Part shown: positions 6,938-21,683 of the stretch, piece after piece
Layout of the letters: every line of letters starts with the position of its first letter
Position numbering within the stretch: the stretch's first letter is position 1
Virus record (IMG/VR): IMGVR_UViG_3300025872_000267
Coordinates: 1-26,141 of that record
Direction: 5' to 3' (one strand)
DNA: 26,141 bases
DNA from: a virus
Notes under the pieces: generated by a model
Told to the model about the DNA's origin: nothing
The model's database searches: none
The model's input: only the letters and a program-made list of their open reading frames with translations
Made by a program: the position numbers and the translations under genes

Positions 6938-6965
6938 ATCATACCACTTTAGGTGCCATTTTCAA
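6938..6965 (-). promoter_or_regulatory. Candidate sigma70 promoter for the fibre block
   Basis: On the minus strand TTGAAA (6965-6960) and TATGAT (6943-6938) are separated by 16 bases. Each matches 5 of 6 consensus positions. The elements overlap the last codons and stop of the J-type gene, and transcription would begin near 6931 and enter the gene starting at 6866. It sits at one of the few sizeable gene gaps (82 bp), at the border between conserved tail genes and the fibre block, which makes it more plausible. Found by eye and not tested. Confidence 0.45.
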
Positions 6966-9900
6966 CACTTAAAATCATGGTTCCAGACCCAACAATTGGG
7001 CTTCCGCTTGACGATGTGCTGATGTCATAAGAAAGTTGGCATTCATCCACACCAGTGGAAGACAGCGCCAAAGTCCATGCTTGATTTGAACTTAACGCCA
7101 ACCATGAGTCAAGCGTACCTGTGCTGGGCGTTGTGCCACTGATTTTAGAAACTTTCACCCAATACGAATTGCCAATATTGGTCGTTGTTGGGCTGTACCA
7201 ACTTTTGTATGTTGCATAAGCCCCAGCGTTTGCTTTGGAATAAACCGTACCGTCAGTTCTAAACTGTAGTCCAGCTGTGGCCGTTCCACTTGCTGCATAT
7301 GCATATTTAACCAATGTTTGGTTTTGAAGTACGCCAGCAATCGTCAAATTAGCTTGGTTAATAGTGACATATAAACTTGATCCATCCCAGAGCAATTTAT
7401 TACCAGAGGCATCTCCAATGCTTAATTTATAAGCACCACCGGAATAACCTAGGAAAAACCCTACACCTGTGTCGTATGCTGTTTGACCACCTTTAATAAA
7501 ACCAGATGAGTCAATAGTAATGGTGCCTGCTGTGATGGTTCCAAGATTTGCCGAAATTGCCGACAAACTACCAACTTTCAACGCAGAAATATAGGGTAAT
7601 CCCCAAACAGTGTTTCCAGTTGATGGGCTGTAAATACCATCAATTTGGAAAATTGACTCACCGGCCACATAGGTGGGAACTGTTCCTTGCCATACTTCGC
7701 TGCCACCCCAAGTGTTATTTGGTGGGAAAGAAGTCGATCCAGATGTGGTGTACGTTGTTGGAGTGTTGTTTAGGGTCGATCCAGTAACTTTGGCGTAAGC
7801 AATTCTGGCAGAAGCTCCATCCGTACCGTTTGTGCCATTTGTGCCATTTGTTCCGTTAGTCCCATTAGTCCCGTTAGTGCCAGCCGCACCATAAGCCAGA
7901 ACAGAAGCAGTGGTCCAGTTAATTGTGCTGGTGGTACTGGTCGCGCTAGATGTCAGATTTACGGTTGCCCCCCAGAGCGTATATCCCGCCGATGGCGATG
8001 TACCGGGAGTCAGTGACCAACCAGATGGGGCAGCACCAAACGAATTGGTTGCCCATGTATATGTTGCAGTACCACTTGGTCCTGTTGGAATGGTTGCCGC
8101 CCATTGATAAACAACCACATTGACTGATTGCGTACCATTAGCACCATCAGTGCCATTAGTGCCATTAGTGCCGTTTGAACCAGCATATCCAACCACATAA
8201 GCGGTGCTGGTTCCCCACGTTACTGTGGATGTTGCCGTTGTAAGCTGATCAGAATAATTTTGATTGCAAGCGTACAGCGTCTGACCGGGCGATCCAGCTG
8301 ACGGGGTTTGCGTCCAACCATTCAGCGTACCGGGATTTGTATAGGTAGCCGTTGCCCATGTATATGTTGAGGTGCCGGACGGGAAAGTTGTCGGGGTTGA
8401 TGTGGCCCACTGATAGATTTCCAGCATCGCAGTGCGATAGCCGTTTGATCCATCTGTGCCGTTTGTACCGTTGGTTCCGTTGGTTCCGTTCGTGCCGTTC
8501 GTACCCGCAGCGCCCAATGCGTATGTGACAGCAGTTGTCCATGTCACTACAGAAGTCGCACTTGTTCCGGTGTCGCTATATGACTGAGTGCAGCCCCAAA
8601 GCGTTTGCCCAGCAACAGCAGAACCCGGCAATTGCGACCATCCATTAAGCGTTGGCGATGTAAATGAATTCGTCGCCCACGTATAAGTGGATGTCCCACT
8701 TGGGAAAGTAGTCGGAGCATTGACGGCCCATTGGTAAACCTCTAATTGAGCTGTTCTAGTGCCATTAGCTCCATCAGTTCCGTTTGTTCCGTTAGTGCCG
8801 TTTGTTCCATTCGACCCGGCATATCCAACAACATATGTGGCCGAGGTGCTCCACGTAACGATTGATGTGGCCGTCGTGTTGGTGTCTGCATAGGTAACAG
8901 AGCAGGCATACAACGCATATCCGGGCGTGGATGTTCCGGGCGTTACTGTCCAGCCATTAGGTGTTCCGGGTGCAGTGAATGTGCCGTTAGCCCAAGTGTA
9001 GGTTGATGTACCAGAAGGGAACGATGTTGGCGCAGTCGCCGCCCATTGGTAAACCTCAAGAAACGCTGTTCGGGTTCCATTTGATCCGGGTGGTCCAACA
9101 GTTCCCGTTGGTGCCCATGTCAATCCTGCGCTTGTAGCTGACAGCGTTGAAGTTGCTTGTTCATTGGCGACTTGGAACGCAAAATAATATGTTGCAGCAG
9201 GCAGGCTGATGTCGGCAAATTTAACTGTACTGCCTTGAGCAAATACTTGCGAATTGGATGCGGTTTGAATGCTCCAAACTTTCCAATCAGTTGAAGACGG
9301 GGACGCAACAGTCGTGTAAAACAAAGTAACTGTTGTGACCCGTCCAGTAGAAGGCATCACACAATTGAATGCAAACGTCGGGATCGTTGCTGACGGAGCT
9401 TGATCCGTTACCGTTGGCGCAACCAGCGCCGGGAAGTAATATGGGCTGGGCAATGAAGAATTCGGTGCCGGTGAGAATTGAGTGATGCTTGCATCGTCAT
9501 AAACAGCAGCGTTGTATTCAGAGCATTCAATTCGAGCACCAAGATTTCCATCAGGCGTAGAAGCCTCTTGTACCTTCATCACCCGGAACAGCTTGGAAGT
9601 CCAGCCATAAACCGAGTTGGTAATGCTAATAACGTCGCCTGCGTTTACTTGAATGCCGGGATAGGCAGTAGTAAACGAAACAATCAAGTCTTCCCGAGCT
9701 TGTTCAAGAATACGATTTGCTAAATATGTTGCTTGAACTGAATCGTTTACTAGGTCAAAAGTTGTGCTGTATTTATTGACCGGTTCATTTGGATACAGCA
9801 ATGATGGATTCAAAACAGCAATATCAAGAAACACATATTCCGGTTGATCTTTGTTTGATTTGAACGGAAAAGACGCCTCAACTTGATTAATTGATGACGA

Positions 9901-10962
9901 AAGGTCAGTGACACTGACACGAATCTCACCAATGATGTTTGAGTCATCAAATGAAAACGAGCTGGATTCTGCCTTGTTAATAATGGGCGACCATTGCCCT
10001 GTTGCGGCTTGATAGGCAAGCCAGCAATCGCAGGCTGTAAGAATCTTATCTACGTTATTGAGAACGGTCTCTCCGGTATTGATGACTCCATTTATGCGGT
10101 ATCGAGCTTGAGTGGCCGATCCACCACCAGAAGGCGTATACGGAATTGTTGCGTCAGAATAAGTATTTAATGCGGCACATTGCGTGGAGTTGACATTTGC
10201 GGCTGGAACTGCGCCGCCATAAACAGTGTTGGTCAAATAGTCATACAAAACATCACCGGGCTTGGCGGCTCCAGTGCTGTTCAAATAATGAGAGCATTTG
10301 AAAGTCAATGCCTGCAAATTTGTAGTGCCTGCGTCACGGTTATAGATCAGCTTGACAATGGCAAAAGCCAATCCATTCATTTGCCGACCAGTAGACGGCC
10401 ACCGCAGACTTGCATCAATGTCTGAGCCGCCCATCACGCTTGATGGGGCAGCTGCACCATTTGTGGATGTAATTACACCGGCAACCGTAGATGTATACAG
10501 ATTGATGTAGAGATTGCCGCTAATGGATGTATCTTCATTTCCTGCGCCATCTGTTAATTTGGTGACTTTTGTTCTGTCAGTGTTGTCAAAAGTTACGAGT
10601 CGATCACCGTAATAAAAAACACTTTGATCGTAAGAAAACTGTCCGTTAGCTGAGATGTTGCTAATCGCCAGCACGTAATACATCGTCTTTTGATCGGTAG
10701 ACAGCACCGCATCGACAAACGTGCCACCCAGCCACGCATCGCCATAAACAACTGGCAAACTGTTAGTGGAATTGGGCGGGATTTGCTGTCTTACGCCGGG
10801 ATCAGTTTGGTTTGGAGGCTGGCTTCCAAAGATGCGAGTCACCACATATGACAACGCAAAATTGACTGCCAATTGAACAACTGCACTGGCCGTGTAAGCG
10901 GCAGCAGCAGCTTGAAAAGTTGCACTGATAAATGTCGCCAGTGACATTTCCAAAATTGGCAT
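6949..10962 (-). CDS. J-type tail tip / host specificity protein with four repeats and collagen-like linkers
   Basis: This 1337-residue protein starts two bases after the upstream stop, with GAGGT about 6 bases before its ATG. Residues 15-47 are hydrophobic and Ala-rich, as in many tail-tip proteins that contact the tape measure or membrane. Residues about 60-520 carry the central-tail hub part: LPVVYGDAWLGG, GLAFAIVKLIYN, the ILTACDCWLAYQAATGQW module and the NAGDVISITN region are typical of J-like proteins. A fibronectin-like segment (about 530-615) follows. Four repeats starting near residues 631, 736, 843 and 945 each open with a VYQW/IYQW motif and end in GTNGTNG-type collagen-like runs. 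The C-terminal part (about 1045-1337) includes LSAISANLGTITAGTITI, familiar from the ends of lambda J-like proteins. It would form the tail tip that recognises the host. Confidence 0.9.
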   Translation of the reverse strand: MPILEMSLATFISATFQAAAAAYTASAVVQLAVNFALSYVVTRIFGSQPPNQTDPGVRQQIPPNSTNSLPVVYGDAWLGGTFVDAVLSTDQKTMYYVLAISNISANGQFSYDQSVFYYGDRLVTFDNTDRTKVTKLTDGAGNEDTSISGNLYINLYTSTVAGVITSTNGAAAPSSVMGGSDIDASLRWPSTGRQMNGLAFAIVKLIYNRDAGTTNLQALTFKCSHYLNSTGAAKPGDVLYDYLTNTVYGGAVPAANVNSTQCAALNTYSDATIPYTPSGGGSATQARYRINGVINTGETVLNNVDKILTACDCWLAYQAATGQWSPIINKAESSSFSFDDSNIIGEIRVSVTDLSSSINQVEASFPFKSNKDQPEYVFLDIAVLNPSLLYPNEPVNKYSTTFDLVNDSVQATYLANRILEQAREDLIVSFTTAYPGIQVNAGDVISITNSVYGWTSKLFRVMKVQEASTPDGNLGARIECSEYNAAVYDDASITQFSPAPNSSLPSPYYFPALVAPTVTDQAPSATIPTFAFNCVMPSTGRVTTVTLFYTTVASPSSTDWKVWSIQTASNSQVFAQGSTVKFADISLPAATYYFAFQVANEQATSTLSATSAGLTWAPTGTVGPPGSNGTRTAFLEVYQWAATAPTSFPSGTSTYTWANGTFTAPGTPNGWTVTPGTSTPGYALYACSVTYADTNTTATSIVTWSTSATYVVGYAGSNGTNGTNGTNGTDGANGTRTAQLEVYQWAVNAPTTFPSGTSTYTWATNSFTSPTLNGWSQLPGSAVAGQTLWGCTQSYSDTGTSATSVVTWTTAVTYALGAAGTNGTNGTNGTNGTNGTDGSNGYRTAMLEIYQWATSTPTTFPSGTSTYTWATATYTNPGTLNGWTQTPSAGSPGQTLYACNQNYSDQLTTATSTVTWGTSTAYVVGYAGSNGTNGTNGTDGANGTQSVNVVVYQWAATIPTGPSGTATYTWATNSFGAAPSGWSLTPGTSPSAGYTLWGATVNLTSSATSTTSTINWTTASVLAYGAAGTNGTNGTNGTNGTNGTNGTDGASARIAYAKVTGSTLNNTPTTYTTSGSTSFPPNNTWGGSEVWQGTVPTYVAGESIFQIDGIYSPSTGNTVWGLPYISALKVGSLSAISANLGTITAGTITIDSSGFIKGGQTAYDTGVGFFLGYSGGAYKLSIGDASGNKLLWDGSSLYVTINQANLTIAGVLQNQTLVKYAYAASGTATAGLQFRTDGTVYSKANAGAYATYKSWYSPTTTNIGNSYWVKVSKISGTTPSTGTLDSWLALSSNQAWTLALSSTGVDECQLSYDISTSSSGSPIVGSGTMILSVENGT
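7805..9072 (-). repeat. Four ~105-codon tandem repeats with Gly-Thr-Asn linkers inside the tail-tip gene
   Basis: Repeats begin at 9072, 8757, 8436 and 8130 on the minus strand, giving spacings of 105, 107 and 102 codons. The shared core is (L/V)(E/V)(V/I)YQWA, an (S)GT(S/A)TYTWA motif about 15 residues later, GW..TPG, then a TLWG or ALYAC segment and VTW. Each unit ends in a Gly-x-x run made mostly of GTN, with GSN, GTD and GAN. The units before repeats 2-4 and after repeat 4 vary in the number of GTN triplets. The first unit is preceded by only a short GPPGSNG. The nucleotide sequences differ between copies, so this is not a recent exact duplication. Confidence 0.9.
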
Positions 10963-12708: not shown

Positions 12709-15147
12709 TTAGGCCCTCCCGCGGCCAACGGCCAGACTCTTTTGAGCGTAAGCATTTGCAGCCCAGACAGCATTTGGAGAAGACATCAGACGCTGTTCAA
12801 ACGATTTGGTATCAATGGCGTTGATGTAGTTATTTGTAATATTTGTCACGCCACCCATCGAGGCCAGTTGATTGTTTGGAATGATCGTGCCTGCTGTGCG
12901 TGGAATGAACAATTCAGGACCTCGTTCGCCAACTAGCGACAATCTATTGGCCGCAACACTTCCACCATTAGCGTGTGGTTCTGCCCAATTTGTCGGAGCA
13001 GTTCCGGGCGCATAGACATTACCGCTAGAACCAAATAAAGCAGATCCAAGAAACTTGAAAATTGCAAGAGCTTGCGATTTCATTTGTATCAAAAGCATAT
13101 CTTGAATAATGCTTCGAGCAAGATCTTTGAATGACAATTTACCAGTGCGAACAAAGTTTTCAAGTGCTTGAGACAAATTGTTCCAAACACTATCTGATAT
13201 TTCTTTAATTCTTGTCAATGAATCCGCAGTTGCTGCCAAACCTTTTTCCATTTCTCTTTGTCCAATAAGTCTTTGAATTGCATTTTCCTTGTCAAGATCA
13301 CTTATTGATGCTTTTTTAATCTCTTCAATTTTTTCAAGATATTTCAAATCAATCATTGCAGCATTAGTTTGCTGCTCTGTATAAAACAAACTTTCTTTTT
13401 GAAATTGCACTTTCTTGCGTTCTTTTTCTAATGAAATATCTGTTGCATTTGCTTCATTTATAACCGCTTTTAACTGAGCGTCAACAAATGCATTAAGCGC
13501 ACCTTCATCTTCATCAAGTTGCTTTCTCCATTCTTCCTGTGCAGTACGTAAATCTGCTTCACGCTTGCGATTTAAATCTCGCACTTTTACATCTAAATCA
13601 CGAAGAATTTTTAATTGATCTTCTTCGTATTTTTCTGCATTTTGTTTTGCAAAAACACCAGCTTCTTGAGCATTCTTTTTATCAAGTTCTAATTTAAGAA
13701 TTGCAAGTTTTTCATCAGCATCAAGTTTTAATTTGCCAATTTCATCGACATTACGTTTTTCAAATTCATATTTATTTTGTACTTCTAATTTTGAATATTC
13801 CAATGCAAGATCAAGACGTTTTTGTCCATTTTTTGCTTCGTCATTAATTCTGTCAGTTTCATTTTTCTTTAGCAGAATAGCTCTATTGCGAAGAAGAATT
13901 TGTTCATTTAAGACATCTGCTTTTTGTTGTTGTTCAGCTATTTTTGCATCAAAAAATGCTGCATTTGCACTTGGTCGTGCCTTTGCTTTTTGATAATCTT
14001 CAATTTGCTTTTGTACAGAACGCAACTTATCTTCAAGAGTAGTTTCTCGTCCAATACCAAGCATGGCATCCCATGCAGCAGAGGCAGATTCTTTAAGAGC
14101 ATTCCAAGATTTTTCAAGAATTCCTAATTCTCTTGTTTGTCCTTGAACTGAAGTATTAAAAGCATCCGCAGCAATTTTGGCAGATTCTTGAAGTTTGCCT
14201 TGCTTTTCCAAAGTTTCAATCTGTTTATATTGGGCAAGAGTCAAGAAATGATATTGATCATTAAGTCGCTTGGCGGAAGCCGCGGTGCCATCAAAAGCCG
14301 GAATCAGAGCTTTGGCAACTTCTTTTGATGTTTGACCCGTCAACTTTGATACATTCAAAATTGCTTGGGCAACAGAATCCATTGATTGACTAGTGAATTG
14401 ACCAGAAGACACCAGTTGAAATAACACTTCTTTTGTATCGCCAATTGATACATTGACATTTTTACTAATTACATTTGCCATGCGCTGAAAACTATCAGCA
14501 GTAATTTTGGCGTAATTATTTGTAAGAATTAAATCGTCTCTAAGTTTTGCAGATTCCATCGATCCTTTGTAAAACGCAATCGCCAATGTTCCAACTGTTG
14601 TGACCAATGCAGTCAATGCAACATTTACAGGCGTAATGAATCCACCAAGGATTCGGAACATATTGGTGAAGCCGCCCATCTGATCTTTTAATTGACCACC
14701 TTGCTGGAGCAAAGCAATCATTGCGTTTTGACCAGATGCGATCTGAGTAACAAGGTCGGTTGTTTGATATGTAAGGGCCAGACGCTGCTGCTCTGTCAAA
14801 CCACCAGTTGCGGCAACCTTGCTTTTTGCGGCTATGTCATCATAAGCCTTGGCTTGCTCACGAAGCCTTGCAATAACCGCTTGTCCTCCTTCACTTGAAG
14901 CAAGATTTTTATATCTGCCACTTTGTAATTCACGTTCAAGTTGAGTTACTCGGGTTATTGTTTTACCGTAATCTTCAGTAGCATATTTAAGAGTTTGAAT
15001 CTCTTTTTCTGCCGAGCGCATTTCACGCGCAATTGAATTTTTAAGTTTATTGGCTTCAAGAGCAACATTTGTTGCACCAGAAGTAAAACCTGCCGAATTT
15101 AATGCGGCTTGAACTTCAAGTTTTGCAATGGTTTGTGACTTAGCCAT
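12709..15147 (-). CDS. Tail tape measure protein
   Basis: This 812-residue protein is the largest helical protein in the window. Residues 1-60 are a charged N-terminal helix. The QQRLALTYQTTDLVTQIASG and GQLKDQMGGF segments (about 120-160) are typical of TMP_2-type tape measures. A hydrophobic stretch at about 166-194 could enter a membrane. A long Lys/Glu/Gln-rich coiled coil covers roughly residues 375-630. The C-terminus has IQDMLLIQMKSQALAIF and LSLVGERGPELFIPR followed by GTIIPNNQL, a familiar lambda-family tape-measure ending. At about 1.5 angstrom per residue, the family rule predicts a tail near 120 nm. It overlaps the gp10-like gene by 8 bp. The central coding region is AT-rich, as expected from Lys/Glu/Ile codons. 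Confidence 0.93.
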   Translation of the reverse strand: MAKSQTIAKLEVQAALNSAGFTSGATNVALEANKLKNSIAREMRSAEKEIQTLKYATEDYGKTITRVTQLERELQSGRYKNLASSEGGQAVIARLREQAKAYDDIAAKSKVAATGGLTEQQRLALTYQTTDLVTQIASGQNAMIALLQQGGQLKDQMGGFTNMFRILGGFITPVNVALTALVTTVGTLAIAFYKGSMESAKLRDDLILTNNYAKITADSFQRMANVISKNVNVSIGDTKEVLFQLVSSGQFTSQSMDSVAQAILNVSKLTGQTSKEVAKALIPAFDGTAASAKRLNDQYHFLTLAQYKQIETLEKQGKLQESAKIAADAFNTSVQGQTRELGILEKSWNALKESASAAWDAMLGIGRETTLEDKLRSVQKQIEDYQKAKARPSANAAFFDAKIAEQQQKADVLNEQILLRNRAILLKKNETDRINDEAKNGQKRLDLALEYSKLEVQNKYEFEKRNVDEIGKLKLDADEKLAILKLELDKKNAQEAGVFAKQNAEKYEEDQLKILRDLDVKVRDLNRKREADLRTAQEEWRKQLDEDEGALNAFVDAQLKAVINEANATDISLEKERKKVQFQKESLFYTEQQTNAAMIDLKYLEKIEEIKKASISDLDKENAIQRLIGQREMEKGLAATADSLTRIKEISDSVWNNLSQALENFVRTGKLSFKDLARSIIQDMLLIQMKSQALAIFKFLGSALFGSSGNVYAPGTAPTNWAEPHANGGSVAANRLSLVGERGPELFIPRTAGTIIPNNQLASMGGVTNITNNYINAIDTKSFEQRLMSSPNAVWAANAYAQKSLAVGRGRA

Positions 15148-15634
15148 TTTTCTTCTTTCTGTTCATTTTGTTTGTGTAAGCAAACACCAATTCCGTTAAT
15201 TCATCTCGAAGAATATCAATAACTTTAATTGCGTTATAAGCCAAAGCTGGCCGCAGAAATGGTTTTGCATCACGTCTAGAGGTGCCAAATTCATTAGCCA
15301 ATGACACGGCGCTTTTCTTGACAGAAACGGAGCCAACAGCGATATCGGCAGGCTTAAAGTAAACTGACTCTTGATCAGAACTGTTTGGCAACCTTGCATT
15401 GAGCCGAATCGTGTCCTTCATGTGGATCGGACGATAAGCGTCTCGCGGCTTTTCGTTGTCCACTGGGGCCATCATCAAGGCCGTCTCGTATACGGGCACC
15501 ATGGCTCGTTTAAGGGCCTTTACGGCGGTCTGCTGGACCATTGTGTCCACAGGAAATTCTTTTGCCAGCGCAAGCATTAATTGCTCAAGCTCATCAAAGC
15601 CTTCTTCGCTCCATGTGAAATCATGCTCAAACAT
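15140..15634 (-). CDS. HK97 gp10-like tail/neck protein
   Basis: This 164-residue protein matches the HK97 gp10-like pattern: an N-terminal helical part with ALKRAMVPVYETALMMAPVD, a short basic DAYRPIHMKDTIRLNAR segment, a core of VYFKPADIAVGSVSVKK, then LANEFGTSRRDAKPFLRPAL and a final helix. The EFGTS and PFLRPA motifs are the most telling. In HK97-like phages this gene usually lies before the tail tube genes. Here it follows the G/GT chaperones and precedes the tape measure. It overlaps the frameshifted reading of the chaperone by 8 bp and the tape measure by 8 bp, suggesting coupled translation. Confidence 0.85.
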   Translation of the reverse strand: MFEHDFTWSEEGFDELEQLMLALAKEFPVDTMVQQTAVKALKRAMVPVYETALMMAPVDNEKPRDAYRPIHMKDTIRLNARLPNSSDQESVYFKPADIAVGSVSVKKSAVSLANEFGTSRRDAKPFLRPALAYNAIKVIDILRDELTELVFAYTNKMNRKKKNG

Positions 15635-16420
15635 AGCTTGCCAACGCTTTCTGCGCTCCCGGCGCTTGGGACATGAACGCCAAAAGTTTCTCGCTGGCCT
15701 GCTGGGCCTGCTCTTCAGGCGTCAGTGGCGGGACAATGTAATCGTGCGTCGAAGGCAGCACATCTGCCATCTTGAACGGTGAAGCACCTTGTTTGAGCTT
15801 TGCGTTGAGATTACCTGTTGTCAGCGACGATAGGGCCACAAGGACTGCCTTGTTGCCTATGAACCCATCACTGAGCAGGATTTCAATATCACGCATTGCA
15901 TCGGCTGGGATTGTGTCAGGACATCCACCATGAGCGTAAATGTACGCCCGAGCTTGCCGATGAATGTCCCGAATTAGTTTTTTCGAGAGTCCTTATAACC
16001 GGGCTGAATCGCTTCAGAAATCTTTTCCAACATCTCAAGCTGAACGGCAAACGGCCATTCAGCCTCAATGTCTTCATAAGTCAATCCATCCAAACTGCCG
16101 TTTTCTGGCACCAGCAATTTAATGAACTCGACAATCCGATTTTCCATTTTCATGGCAGATTGCACAAGTTCTTTTGTAGAGCGGCCATCGACGATCACAT
16201 CGTCTTTTTTGATTTCCACTCCATCTTTGGATTCTTTGAAGCCAGCCACCGCTTTTTCGTAGCGGGTTTTGAATGCGGCTTGATCAATGACATCGCATCG
16301 AGCGGTCATTTCTTCGAGCTCTTTAGTCAAGGGGACGCGAACCTTAAACGTCATCCCGCCAAGCTCAAAGGTTTTGGTGCGGAGTTGTAGCGTATCTCCA
16401 AACGCGCCGGATAGTTTCAT
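15627..16420 (-). CDS. GT fusion tail assembly chaperone made by -1 frameshift
   Basis: If ribosomes slip by -1 at AAAAAAC (15983-15977), the 148 residues of the upstream frame are followed by 116 residues in the -1 frame. This frame stays open through 27 codons before its first ATG (15896) and ends at TGA 15627-15629, giving about 264 residues. The extension begins LIRDIHRQARAYIYAHGGCP and includes the MRDIEILLSDGFIGNKAVLV and PPLTPEEQAQQASEKLL segments. A short G protein plus a longer GT fusion immediately before the tape measure is the conserved arrangement in lambda-like tails, where the two coat the tape measure during tube assembly. A stand-alone 89-aa protein from 15896 is possible but less likely, as no good ribosome binding site is seen there. 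The frameshift is inferred, not measured. Confidence 0.85.
15917..15994 (-). promoter_or_regulatory. Programmed -1 ribosomal frameshift signal
   Basis: On the minus strand an SD-like AAGGA (15994-15990) precedes CG-A-AAA-AAC. The heptamer A AAA AAC occupies 15983-15977 in the zero frame, with TAA immediately after. Five bases later an 8-bp stem can form between CGGGACAT (15971-15964) and ATGTCCTG (15924-15917), with one G-U pair. Inside it lies a 7-bp hairpin, GGGCGTA (15949-15943), loop CATT, TACGCTC (15938-15932), also with one G-U pair. Slippery site, spacer of 5, structured RNA and upstream SD-like element are all hallmarks of bacterial -1 frameshifting. Confidence 0.88.
15974..16420 (-). 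CDS. G-type tail assembly chaperone (unshifted product)
   Basis: The 148-residue unshifted product starts with an ATGA overlap with the 76-aa gene and ends at TAA (15974-15976), directly after the slippery heptamer. An N-terminal beta-like part (TKTFELGGMTFKVRVPLTKE) precedes helical segments with RYEKAVAGFKESKDGVE and ENRIVEFIKLLVPENG, then a conserved-looking FAVQLEMLEKISEAIQPGY end. This size and position (after the tail tube genes, before the tape measure) fit lambda gpG. It should be made in large excess over the frameshifted form, as in lambda, but the ratio is not visible in sequence. Confidence 0.85.
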   Translation of the reverse strand: MKLSGAFGDTLQLRTKTFELGGMTFKVRVPLTKELEEMTARCDVIDQAAFKTRYEKAVAGFKESKDGVEIKKDDVIVDGRSTKELVQSAMKMENRIVEFIKLLVPENGSLDGLTYEDIEAEWPFAVQLEMLEKISEAIQPGYKDSRKN

Positions 16421-16647: not shown

Positions 16648-16815
16648 TTAATGATACTTGGCTAGAACATTAAGAACCACTGCCTCTGCTGTGTCGGCTT
16701 CCACCTCGGAAAGAGCTTCTTGAAGCTCCTCCGAGTCCACCACTTGAGCTTTAGCCGCTGCATCCAGATCGCCCCGAAGTTCGACCAGTTCATCCACGAT
16801 TTCTTGCAGCGTCAT
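16648..16815 (-). CDS. 55-aa acidic helical protein
   Basis: This short gene starts at ATG 16815 in an ATGA overlap with the second major tail protein and ends at TAA 16648-16650, immediately before the ATG of the next gene. The product, MTLQEIVDELVELRGDLDAA and onward, is 55 residues of acidic helix rich in Glu, Asp, Ala, Leu and Val, with heptad-like Leu/Val spacing. There is no membrane segment. Its exact fit between two coupled genes, leaving no unexplained bases, is strong support for it being real. Function unknown; a small coiled-coil adaptor or chaperone partner is only a guess. Confidence 0.75.
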   Translation of the reverse strand: MTLQEIVDELVELRGDLDAAAKAQVVDSEELQEALSEVEADTAEAVVLNVLAKYH

Positions 16816-17330
16816 GTGTTGCTCCAGCCGTATTGACCACCGCGGGGGTGGATGGTGAATGTGGCTTTTGCTTCGGCACCCGGCTGTGCATCGATCTGGA
16901 ATTGACCGACACGGGCATTGAAGGCATAAGCGATTGTGGTGGAGCCATCAACCGCAGCAATCACAAACGTGCGCTCAGTGACGCCAGAATAGGCATCAGA
17001 ACGGATTTGCAACAGTGCCGTATCAGACGGATTCCACGCAGCCGAAATCGTCAGTGACGTAGGAGCCGACTGTGATGGGATTTTGTCCGATTGACGTGAA
17101 CCTGCAACGGAGAACGATGCGACTGCGTCATCTTGTCCAAACGCAGGGATCGCCTCGACAACAAGCTGAGTACCAGCAGTGCCCGTGCCATTAGCTGCGG
17201 TTCCAACAATAGTGGCGACTTGAGCAGTCCAGACCGACAAATTGGCCGTACTAAGTGTCGTGGGAGTGGCCGCAGACTGCATCCAAAGCGATGCACTAAA
17301 GCCGGGAAGAATTTTGTTAGGTGCTGCCAT
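16812..17330 (-). CDS. Second major tail (tube) protein, paralogue B
   Basis: This 172-residue protein is a close paralogue of the gene immediately upstream. Residues 58-104 (VEAIPAFGQDDAVASFSVAG and onward) match the other copy at 45 of 47 positions, and a C-terminal block (YAFNARVGQFQIDAQPGAEA to HPRG) at 29 of 30. The N-terminal third and residues about 105-132 differ, and this copy has an extra Gly/Thr/Ala insertion near 43-54. The DNA of the matching blocks has many third-base changes, so the pair is old and under selection. It has a strong GAGGTGA ribosome binding site 8 bp after the first copy and is coupled to the 55-aa gene. Likely a tail-tube subunit or variant. Confidence 0.85.
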   Translation of the reverse strand: MAAPNKILPGFSASLWMQSAATPTTLSTANLSVWTAQVATIVGTAANGTGTAGTQLVVEAIPAFGQDDAVASFSVAGSRQSDKIPSQSAPTSLTISAAWNPSDTALLQIRSDAYSGVTERTFVIAAVDGSTTIAYAFNARVGQFQIDAQPGAEAKATFTIHPRGGQYGWSNT

Positions 17331-17338
17331 GATTCACC

Positions 17339-17833
17339 TCAAGCGTTGTTAGACCAACCGTACATATTTCCACGCGGATGCAGCGTGAATGTCGCTTTAG
17401 CTTCAGCACCGGGCTGTGCGTCAATTTGGAACTGACCCACGCGGGCGTTGAAAGCGTAGTAAACGATGTTCGAACCATCGGTCGCGGACACCACATAAGT
17501 GCGCTCAGTGATGCCGGAATAGGCGTCTGTGCGGACCTGTTGGATCACGGTATCCGAAGGGTTCCAAGCCGCCGAAATGGTCAGCGAAGTCGGTGCTGCT
17601 TGAGAAGGGATTTTGTCCGACTGACGCGAACCGGCCACCGAGAACGAGGCCACAGCATCGTCTTGACCAAAGGCGGGAACCGCTTCGACCAACAACTGAT
17701 TGCCAGAAACCGCGATGGCAGCAACAGAAGCCAGAGTGGACAACTGCGCCAGCGTCAGGGCCGTAGGAGAGGCTCCCGACTGAGCATAAATCGCAGCACT
17801 AAAACCCGGAAGAATTTTGCTTGGGAGAGCCAT
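17339..17833 (-). CDS. Major tail (tube) protein, paralogue A
   Basis: This 164-residue protein starts MALPSKILPGFSAAIYAQSG with an AAGGGA ribosome binding site, after a 33-bp gap from the tail terminator gene. The compact beta-rich sequence, with SQAAPTSLTISAAWNPSDT and a C-terminal RVGQFQIDAQPGAEAKATFT strand set, and the position right after the terminator gene, identify it as the tail-tube subunit. Tube proteins form stacked hexameric rings around the tape measure. No extra immunoglobulin-like C-terminal domain is present. It and the following gene form a conserved paralogue pair. Which copy is more abundant cannot be told from sequence. Confidence 0.88.
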   Translation of the reverse strand: MALPSKILPGFSAAIYAQSGASPTALTLAQLSTLASVAAIAVSGNQLLVEAVPAFGQDDAVASFSVAGSRQSDKIPSQAAPTSLTISAAWNPSDTVIQQVRTDAYSGITERTYVVSATDGSNIVYYAFNARVGQFQIDAQPGAEAKATFTLHPRGNMYGWSNNA

Positions 17834-19290: not shown

Positions 19291-20304
19291 TCAGACCTTC
19301 ATCCGCACACCGGCAAACGGGTCGCGCACCGAGCTGACCACACGTTTTTCAGCATAGAGGTTCACAAAACCGGGCATTGTTTGTTCCATCATCTGGACAG
19401 AAAATTCATTCATGTCACCGATGGTCAAAAAGCGCGGCCAATTCGCCAAATAAATCGGATATGTGCTTGACAAATATGGGTTCGGGATTACAGGCCACCC
19501 AAAGACTCGGCCAACCGCAGCACCGTCTTCGTCGCCTGTTTCCAAAAAGATTGGCAGACCTTGGTTATCAGTCAGATTACGCAAGGTAGTGATCATGGTG
19601 GGATTCATGTGCCACGCTGTTCCGGGAAGCGCCCAATATTGACCCGGCAATTTATTGGCCGTATTGACAATGTCGTTGTATGCAACAGAAACGCCGGAAT
19701 CAAGCGTTGCAATCGTGTGGATGCCATTTGTCATGGCCGTGCCGCTTGAACCAAATGCAGACGCAGCGCCATCAACGTACATATCCAGCCCACGCAAGCC
19801 AGAAGTCGCGCCTGTGGTCGTTGTGGTGCTTCCGGCTTGATCATCATTGATCGCCATGCTTGCGCCTTCGAGTTGCGCAAATTCCAGCATCAAGTCTTCG
19901 ACCAATTCGGTAGGAAGATTATTGACATCGCCCAACACAGCCGAGCGAATCGGCAGTTGAGCGGTAATTGCTCGAACCGGCAGTTGCCAGATCGAAGTGT
20001 TTGTTCCGGGAGAACCGGTGTCGTTTGCAACTGGATAGCCCCAAGGATTTCCAGCTTGATTAGTTGCGTTACCTGTCTTGGCAACGAACTGCATATCAGA
20101 GCCCATCACAGGCACTTGACGCGATCCCATACGAAACGGGTTCGCATAACGCAGAGCAGCAAAAGCATCATCGAAAATAACATTACCACCGACGCCGGAG
20201 CCGGAACCAGTAAGCAACGAGGCTTCAGTCAAATCAATCTTGATTTGTCGCTGCTCGTGAATGGATTGTTTGATTCCGTCAAGGATTTTTTCGGTGATGC
20301 TCAT
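19291..20304 (-). CDS. Second HK97-fold major capsid paralogue lacking the scaffold (delta) region
   Basis: This 337-residue protein is clearly homologous to the capsid gene upstream. Shared features in order are ASLLTGSGSGVGG (residues 28-40), FAALRYANPFR, the WGYPVANDTG and TSIWQL motifs, LPIRSAV, GLRGLDMY, NGIHTIATLD, PGQYWAL, FGWPVIPNPYLS and a C-terminal SVRDPFAGVRMKV. Only 27 residues precede the junction motif, against about 99 in the other copy, so the coiled-coil scaffold is missing. AGGA about 9 bases before the ATG is a good ribosome binding site. It probably needs the longer protein, or another scaffold, for assembly. Roles as vertex protein or mixed-shell subunit are possible. 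The family is clear but the role is inferred. Confidence 0.88.
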   Translation of the reverse strand: MSITEKILDGIKQSIHEQRQIKIDLTEASLLTGSGSGVGGNVIFDDAFAALRYANPFRMGSRQVPVMGSDMQFVAKTGNATNQAGNPWGYPVANDTGSPGTNTSIWQLPVRAITAQLPIRSAVLGDVNNLPTELVEDLMLEFAQLEGASMAINDDQAGSTTTTTGATSGLRGLDMYVDGAASAFGSSGTAMTNGIHTIATLDSGVSVAYNDIVNTANKLPGQYWALPGTAWHMNPTMITTLRNLTDNQGLPIFLETGDEDGAAVGRVFGWPVIPNPYLSSTYPIYLANWPRFLTIGDMNEFSVQMMEQTMPGFVNLYAEKRVVSSVRDPFAGVRMKV

Positions 20305-20323
20305 GGTGTATTCCTAGTGAAAG

Positions 20324-20353
20324 CGAAAAGAGGGGGAAGGTTTCCCTCCCCCC
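20324..20353 (-). terminator. Terminator-like hairpin between the two capsid genes
   Basis: On the minus strand, just after the stop of the 440-aa capsid gene, GGGGG-G-A-GG (20353-20345) pairs with CC-T-T-CCCCC (20340-20332) around a GAAA tetraloop. That is nine pairs, including one G-U. A short T-rich run TCTTTT (20331-20326) follows. This resembles a rho-independent terminator with a weak U-tract, so partial termination or mRNA 3-prime end stabilisation could make the upstream capsid protein more abundant. The gene gap is only 56 bp, and the ribosome binding site of the next gene lies beyond it. Confidence 0.6.
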
Positions 20354-20360
20354 ACTTCTA

Positions 20361-21683
20361 TCAGGTCGCAGTGCCTGTCGAGCGATAACGCACACCGGCG
20401 TTGGGGTCGCGCACACTGGTTGCCAGACGTTTTTCCCCGAACATCGTTATGTAGCCGGGGGCTGTCTGGTCGTATCTCCGCAGAACCATGTTGAGGCGAT
20501 CAACGATGGTGTGGAAGCGCGACCAATCAGCAAAGTACATCGGATACAAGCTGTTCGTGCCAGCAGAACCAGAGGTCGTTTGGCTAGGCGTGTCGAGATA
20601 CTTGTTCATCACGACATCGAAGCCCAACATCTGACCGATGATGCCATCGGGGTTCAGCGACTCGACAGAGTTGAAGATCGGGCGACCGTTGGTGTCTTGC
20701 AGGCCACGAATGGCTTGAGCAAGAATCGGGTTCACCATGAACTTCGCGTCCTTGGTCCAGTACTGCTGAGGCAGTGCGTAGATCAGGTTGATCACATCCT
20801 TGTACTGGATGTTGTTCGCGCCAACGGTGTTAGCGTTGGTGGTCAACTGGTCATACGTTGCCAACGAGTGCAGGCCAGAAGAGCTGCCGGTGCCAGACGA
20901 ACCGAATGCAGCAACCGACGAAGTGCCACCTGCATAGGTAGCATTTGCGCCAGCGTACTGATCCAGACCGCGCAGACCGTTAGAACCACCGTAGGGCAAG
21001 CTAGTAGCACCTTGGTCGTTGTTCTGCACCATGCTGAGGGCCTCACTCTGGGCGAAGCTGGCGAGCATATCATCAACGATCACAGCCTCCAACCCGTCGA
21101 TGTCATCCAGAGCCGCAGTACGGATCGGGAATTGCACGTTGAGGTCTTGCAGCACCAATTGCCAAATGCTTGTGTCTTCAGTCGTGGCCGCTGTGTTGTT
21201 CACAATCGGGTAGCCCCAGCCTTCACCGGGGTTGCCCACGCGCACGCGAAACTGATAGCTTGAGCCATCAGTAGCAACAGTACGCGACAGACCGCGCATC
21301 GGGTTCAGCAGACGCAGGGCCGTGAAGGTGGGGTCATAAGCGGTGCGACCGCCCTTGCCATCACCACCACCGGTCAACTGCGATGCTTCCTTCATGTAGG
21401 CATCGTATTGGCCTTCATCGTCAAACATCTTCAGTTCTTTTTCAAACTGAGGCTTGCCACCGATGTACTCTTTGACTTGCTCTTTGACCTTGCGGTTCAC
21501 GTCTTGACGAACGCTTTTGGCGATCGGTTTGACGATAGCGGGAGCTTGCACAGAAGCAACTTTGGCTTCCAGAGCAGCAACCTTCTCAGAAAATTCGGCC
21601 TTGACCGCTTCAACGGACTCGGCAACTTTTGCGAGTGTGGACTCTTGAATAGCGTCCAGCTTTTCCATAATAACTTGAGACAT
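20361..21683 (-). CDS. HK97-fold major capsid protein with N-terminal scaffold (delta) domain
   Basis: This 440-residue protein has a long N-terminal charged coiled-coil region (residues 1 to about 100, SQVIMEKLDAIQESTLAKVA onward), the usual delta domain that acts as scaffold and is removed by the prohead protease. The shell part begins near ASQLTGGGDGKGG (100-112) and continues with FTALRLLNPMRG, GWGYPIVNN, TSIWQLVLQDL, FPIRTAALDD, GLRGLDQY, QQYWTKDAKFMVNPI, GQMLGFDVVMNKYL and SVRDPNAGVRYR. The portion after the junction is about 337 residues, a normal mature size. It lies two bases after the protease gene, with AAAGG as ribosome binding site. It is probably the main shell subunit. Confidence 0.92.
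   Translation of the reverse strand: MSQVIMEKLDAIQESTLAKVAESVEAVKAEFSEKVAALEAKVASVQAPAIVKPIAKSVRQDVNRKVKEQVKEYIGGKPQFEKELKMFDDEGQYDAYMKEASQLTGGGDGKGGRTAYDPTFTALRLLNPMRGLSRTVATDGSSYQFRVRVGNPGEGWGYPIVNNTAATTEDTSIWQLVLQDLNVQFPIRTAALDDIDGLEAVIVDDMLASFAQSEALSMVQNNDQGATSLPYGGSNGLRGLDQYAGANATYAGGTSSVAAFGSSGTGSSSGLHSLATYDQLTTNANTVGANNIQYKDVINLIYALPQQYWTKDAKFMVNPILAQAIRGLQDTNGRPIFNSVESLNPDGIIGQMLGFDVVMNKYLDTPSQTTSGSAGTNSLYPMYFADWSRFHTIVDRLNMVLRRYDQTAPGYITMFGEKRLATSVRDPNAGVRYRSTGTAT

Follow-up and report, generated by a model that had tools for sequence, protein, structure and literature searches.

Two adjacent predicted tail-tube genes of freshwater-type phages with inner faces changing in lockstep

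Phage tail tubes are, to our knowledge, treated as homopolymers. The tubes of lambda (gpV), SPP1 (gp17.1), 80alpha (gp53) and the GTA (Rcc01691) each come from one gene, whereas the viral record analysed here carries two co-evolving genes, A and B, at the corresponding place. Why would a phage keep two tail-tube genes? Is the second copy decaying, does it serve at a tube end or in other virions, or do both proteins build the same tube? We have addressed these questions in the whole record IMGVR_UViG_3300025872_000267 of IMG/VR (26,141 nucleotides, the window) and in its relatives.

The minus strand of the window has the ORF order of a siphophage head-tail operon: TerL, portal, protease, two capsid-fold proteins, connectors, A, B, a small acidic ORF, a gpG/GT-like pair, the tape measure and tip genes. 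The features concerned are:

19291-21683, minus strand: neighbouring capsid genes of the HK97 fold, 440 aa and 337 aa long, sharing about 40% identity
17339..17833, minus strand: tail-tube protein A (164 aa), copy of the ancestral type, an intact ORF (PHROG 158, AF2 model)
16812..17330, minus strand: tail-tube protein B, 172 aa, the paralogue with a 9-aa insertion between b1 and b2, an intact ORF (PHROG 158, AF2 model)
16648..16815, minus strand: acidic ORF of 55 aa, its ATG overlapping the B stop codon (ATGA)
15627..16420, minus strand: gpG/gpGT-like tail assembly chaperone with a -1 frameshift (from sequence and fused translation)
12709..15147, minus strand: tape measure protein, 812 aa (from position and length)
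6949-10962, minus strand: central tail protein, 1337 aa (from translation)

Between the A and B ORFs lie a stop codon and 8 nt. Judged by ORF order and the -1 frameshift chaperone, their place between the connector genes and gpG/GT plus the tape measure is that of siphophage major tail genes, as it is for the genes of lambda gpV, SPP1 gp17.1, 80alpha gp53 and GTA Rcc01691. The slippery heptamer A AAA AAC lies near 15974-15985 (minus strand), immediately ahead of a TAA stop, and fuses ORFs 15974-16420 and 15627-15896; a slippery heptamer closing an open frame downstream of the tube genes is present in 118/174 relatives. The site of the 55-aa ORF is occupied by another small ORF in single-copy relatives. 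The central tail protein has about five repeat modules of the TRTAFLEVYQWAATAPTSFPSGTSTYTW type with collagen-like GTN repeats in between.

Both proteins match the PHROG 158 profile 'major tail protein' (A, E 9e-5; B, E 6e-7). Pfam gave no match for A or B themselves, Phage_tube_2 being matched weakly by 20/78 members of the alignment, and a sequence search of the PDB gave none. The AF2 monomer models (pLDDT 77 for A, 75.5 for B) are beta-sandwiches with a flanking helix and a long b2-b3 loop, and lambda gpV and tail tubes related to it are their best structural matches (A, VIA Z about 10, rmsd about 7 Å; B, VIA Z about 12, rmsd 4-5 Å; some 130-145 residues aligned). The b2-b3 loop of A is mostly below pLDDT 50 in the monomer model, and the same fold with a loop disordered in the monomer is found in lambda gpV, SPP1 gp17.1, 80alpha gp53 and Rcc01691. 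By profile and predicted fold, A and B are thus siphophage tail-tube proteins of the lambda-gpV type, as a sequence-only reading of the locus had proposed in calling them tandem tail-tube paralogues.

The two are identical at 122/163 shared positions (74%) in the alignment. That reading had described two near-identical blocks, and these are present, VEA[V/I]PAFGQ...AAWNPSDT matching at 45/47 positions and YAFNARVGQF...HPRG at 29/30; the differences it placed in the N-terminal third and a loop region fall in the N-terminal third and the stretch 95-129. The codon changes it saw amount to different codons at 70/122 identical residues, and NG86 dS between A and B is about 3, which is saturated. 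The parts of the pair that matter below are:

17178..17204, minus strand: B-only 9-residue insertion GTAANGTGT, B residues 43-51 (from the alignment)
17585..17677, minus strand: long b2-b3 (inter-ring) loop of A, residues 53-83 (AF2 model, element assignment)
17372..17446, minus strand: second concerted block, b5.2, b5-b6 loop and b6.1 (inner sheet, ring face), A residues 130-154

Among 82 B copies most positions of the insertion GTAANGTGT are invariant or nearly so. The structural mapping uses monomer models in which the key loop is of low confidence, with element boundaries set by analogy with other tubes; on this mapping the divergent A/B regions lie on the predicted outer face, in agreement with the earlier suggestion that they are exposed.

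How old is the pair? Scans of viral contigs, with single-copy homologues as queries besides A and B, supplied the loci; five bacterial-genome loci were added and duplicates removed. Because many loci are partial contigs, B was scored absent only with at least 700 bases in view on both sides. In this collection, which is skewed toward close relatives (best 80 per scan), the A-then-B tandem occurs at no fewer than 124 non-redundant loci, the window included, and therefore is not a chance arrangement; an A-type gene only occurs at 75 or more. Among the matches listed for these loci, B was never seen without A. The phage family with the pair is of the freshwater type. In a tree of the outer region the B sequences of the first set form one clade (82/82, support 1.0), and A and B from the same genome are never sisters. 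Independent duplications are unsupported, B being a single clade with its own insertion. Orthologues of A have a dN/dS of 0.079 and those of B 0.096, so pseudogene-like decay of one copy is ruled out. Both copies are constrained across relatives, with no relaxation of selection in either, and the long-term selection on the core that had been suggested is borne out. The A/B pair is old and maintained. On capsid-gene trees the pair/single state switches about 8-10 times, which indicates that B has repeatedly been lost or exchanged; as A alone suffices in many relatives, B is not generally required.

If A and B had diverged independently after duplication, they should be no more alike within one phage than across phages. 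For the inner barrel together with the ring loops, identity is instead 0.933 for A-B within genomes, against 0.831 for A-B between genomes and 0.839 for orthologues; the best of 3000 permutations reached 0.849, and 42 further pairs replicated the difference (0.929 within genomes vs 0.842). The proportion of A-B mismatch that is removed within genomes is 0.70 for the b2-b3 loop, 0.75 for the b5-b6 loop, 0.59 for b3, 0.56 for b5.2, 0.32 for b6.1 and 0.31 for b2, and only 0.01-0.03 for b1, the b1-b2 insert, the helix, b5.1 and b6.2. In the b2-b3 loop (A residues 53-83) A and B are 97% identical within genomes vs 90% between genomes. The outer sheet, the helix and the B-only insert keep their paralogue identity (60% A-B vs 77% for orthologues), and the ten most paralogue-specific residues are all in outer elements.

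The lumen of published tubes is lined by b2, b3, b6.1 and b5.2, with b2-b5.2 making the lateral contact and the b2-b3 loop the ring-ring contact (PMC8718954). Set against that review (PMC8718954), the concerted elements are the inner sheet and the inter-ring loop, and the non-concerted ones are the sheet and helix on the outside. At 18 sites, 99 same-residue, same-branch co-substitutions were counted where about 17 would be expected, a count that is descriptive only because the 18 sites were picked as concerted; the permutation and the replication are the tests. In the inner region of 25 independent sister-genome pairs, double changes are matched in 8 cases and unmatched in 3. Close sister genomes have 48 inner sites changed in one copy only, so the matching is not immediate. 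The inner faces of A and B have changed in lockstep, without homogenisation of the DNA. The earlier picture of a conserved core and a divergent surface overlooks the chief feature: the core is not static and changes in step in both copies.

A and B are probably both bulk subunits of one non-contractile tail tube, and from their sequences we infer that they touch within it, since proteins meeting in one tube would have to match each change at a shared contact. Both would derive from one duplication, each keeping a lambda-gpV-like tube fold. Selection on contacts would keep the inner beta-barrel and the ring-stacking loops matched in every phage, a contact residue altered in one protein being followed in the other, and the tube would owe two different outer surfaces to the outer sheet, flanking helix and b1-b2 insert. 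With inner and ring faces kept matched, rings of A and of B, or rings containing both, could stack and line one channel. The distinct outer faces are a candidate reason for having two genes, and the second face may help with bending, make longer tails more stable or set surface properties. A tentative picture, somewhat short of an even chance, is a widespread family with a hetero-polymeric tube of mixed A/B rings, in which identical inner and ring interfaces are selected, each subunit has its own outer surface, and the A:B ratio would tune the outer pattern or mechanics and leave the channel untouched.

Must the rings be mixed? Pure A and pure B rings, zoned or alternating in one tube, would be a sub-case of the same co-assembly; this is unlikely, although the strongest concerted elements are ring-ring loops (0.70, 0.75) and paralogue identity is kept in the outer parts, both of which speak for it. 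Pure rings would not need the concerted change of the lateral strands b2 and b5.2 (0.31, 0.56), and mixed rings are somewhat favoured because of it, with the qualification that both strands are turned toward the lumen and the tape measure as well.

B might instead form one or a few special end rings (initiator, terminator or baseplate-proximal) that stack on A and share its ring face. Minor tube proteins of the AFP/PVC type are found at the tube ends of contractile injection systems, and such a role would suit both the relatives in which A alone makes the tube (75 at least) and the lack, among the matches listed, of any B without A. Codon bias argues against it. With C in two-fold NNY codons as the measure, and each gene set against the other structural genes of its genome, the values are +0.135 for the first capsid gene (MCP1), +0.076 for A, +0.064 for B, +0.019 for the second (MCP2) and -0.067 for the tape measure. 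Only MCP1 ranks above A and B, which lie well apart from the tape measure, and this indirect measure of expression fits two high-copy proteins rather than a tube protein and an end ring; the bias of B is equal to that of A and unlike that of the tape measure, protease and connector 2 genes. Furthermore, the ring loop of B seems to match that of A on both contact sides, where an end ring would be expected to match on one face only. An end-ring role is distinctly improbable.

Less probable again is that A and B serve in different virions or conditions and are pulled alike by having to fit one set of shared partners, namely tape measure, chaperone and tube-end proteins. The concerted elements do include lumen-facing strands, and a gpG/GT-type chaperone is likely common to both, but the b2-b3 loop contacts mainly tube subunits in known tubes (PMC8718954). 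Moreover, the genes are adjacent, SD-like sites precede A at 122/124 and B at 113/124 loci, and codon bias is equal, so there is no sign of alternative use of A and B.

Gene conversion between the tandem genes, with selection holding the outer parts apart, is hardly credible as the source of the matched core: tandem repeats favour recombination and one locus (L179) carries a 92-nt identical A/B run, yet core fourfold sites match at 0.35, about chance (0.336), matched Ser/Leu/Arg residues use different codon boxes at 73/293 sites, and the sequence flanking recent matched changes shows no copying, a rejection that covers tracts longer than a few bases. Around nine matched changes (8 inner, 1 outer) the flanking third positions are orthologous (0.7) and not A-like-B (0.4-0.5). 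With A-B synonymous sites saturated, the match is not explained by copying of DNA. Nor would older conversion suffice, because by the time the synonymous signal of a conversion has faded, identity would be expected to sit at the orthologue level; at comparable synonymous divergence core identity is 0.83 for orthologues and 0.92-0.94 for A-B within genomes, which exceeds the orthologue median at equal synonymous divergence in 76/78 genomes. Taken together, synonymous sites, flanks and codon boxes largely exclude that conversion made the cores identical. The run in L179, at the 3' ends of the genes, is the sole clear recent A/B conversion seen. The capsid pair provides a negative control from the same genomes, its identity being 0.400 within vs 0.397 between genomes; it does not evolve in concert, and the A/B effect is therefore not a genome-wide bias.

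A tube of A and B together would have partial parallels. In SPP1 two forms come from one gene, the longer by a translational frameshift. Both of these major tail proteins, gp17.1 and gp17.1*, occur in the SPP1 virion and have the same tube core, as is proposed for A and B; the title of reference 22 in PMC8718954 gives the presence of the two proteins. A and B differ in being two genes with their own SD sites and no extra domain: no SPP1-type frameshift form was seen in the pair, which consists of two complete ORFs with separate starts and, in most relatives, SD-like sites. T5 pb6 forms a trimeric ring from two duplicated tube domains fused in one protein (PMC5717097), giving a ring with two kinds of duplication-derived domain, as proposed for A/B. 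No such fused double domain is present in A/B, where a stop codon intervenes between the two ORFs, and separate genes would leave the stoichiometry free. Heterohexamers of Hcp2 and Hcp3 of the Bacteroides T6SS are mentioned in PMC13323088, and their structure, PDB 9vne, was listed in the structure search. These paralogous tube proteins are a precedent for mixed hexamers, in an effector-loading secretion tube rather than a phage tail. The nearest isolated relative among the matches listed, Methylophilaceae phage P19250A (KX815270), has the same gene order and an MCP pair, and one tube gene only, vs A and B in the window. No isolated phage among the matches listed carried both tube genes. A two-gene family with many one-gene relatives offers a natural comparison for what a second subunit does to length, bending, stability and outer surface. 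A and B are also an unusual and clean example of paralogues whose proteins stay matched on their contact surfaces without gene conversion.

Is tail length the reason for the pair? The median tape measure is 804 aa in pair phages vs 597 aa in single-tube phages. PGLS on the MCP1 tree gives a pair effect of +125 aa (t=3.3), and on the tape-measure tree the effect on tape-measure length vanishes. Tail length as the reason is thus only suggestive, and the association appears partly explained by relatedness.

The sequence-only reading had also linked the tube pair to the capsid pair as a joint doubling of both shell subunits, and this is not supported: two complete MCP genes are present in 30 single-tube loci, as in P19250A, so the capsid duplication is a separate, older event. 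In four other single-tube relatives (L146, L140, L158 and L154) tblastn found only the first capsid gene with the region in view. The second capsid gene has a shorter N terminus and weaker codon bias; its bias suggests that MCP2 is less abundant than MCP1, and it may encode a minor capsid protein.
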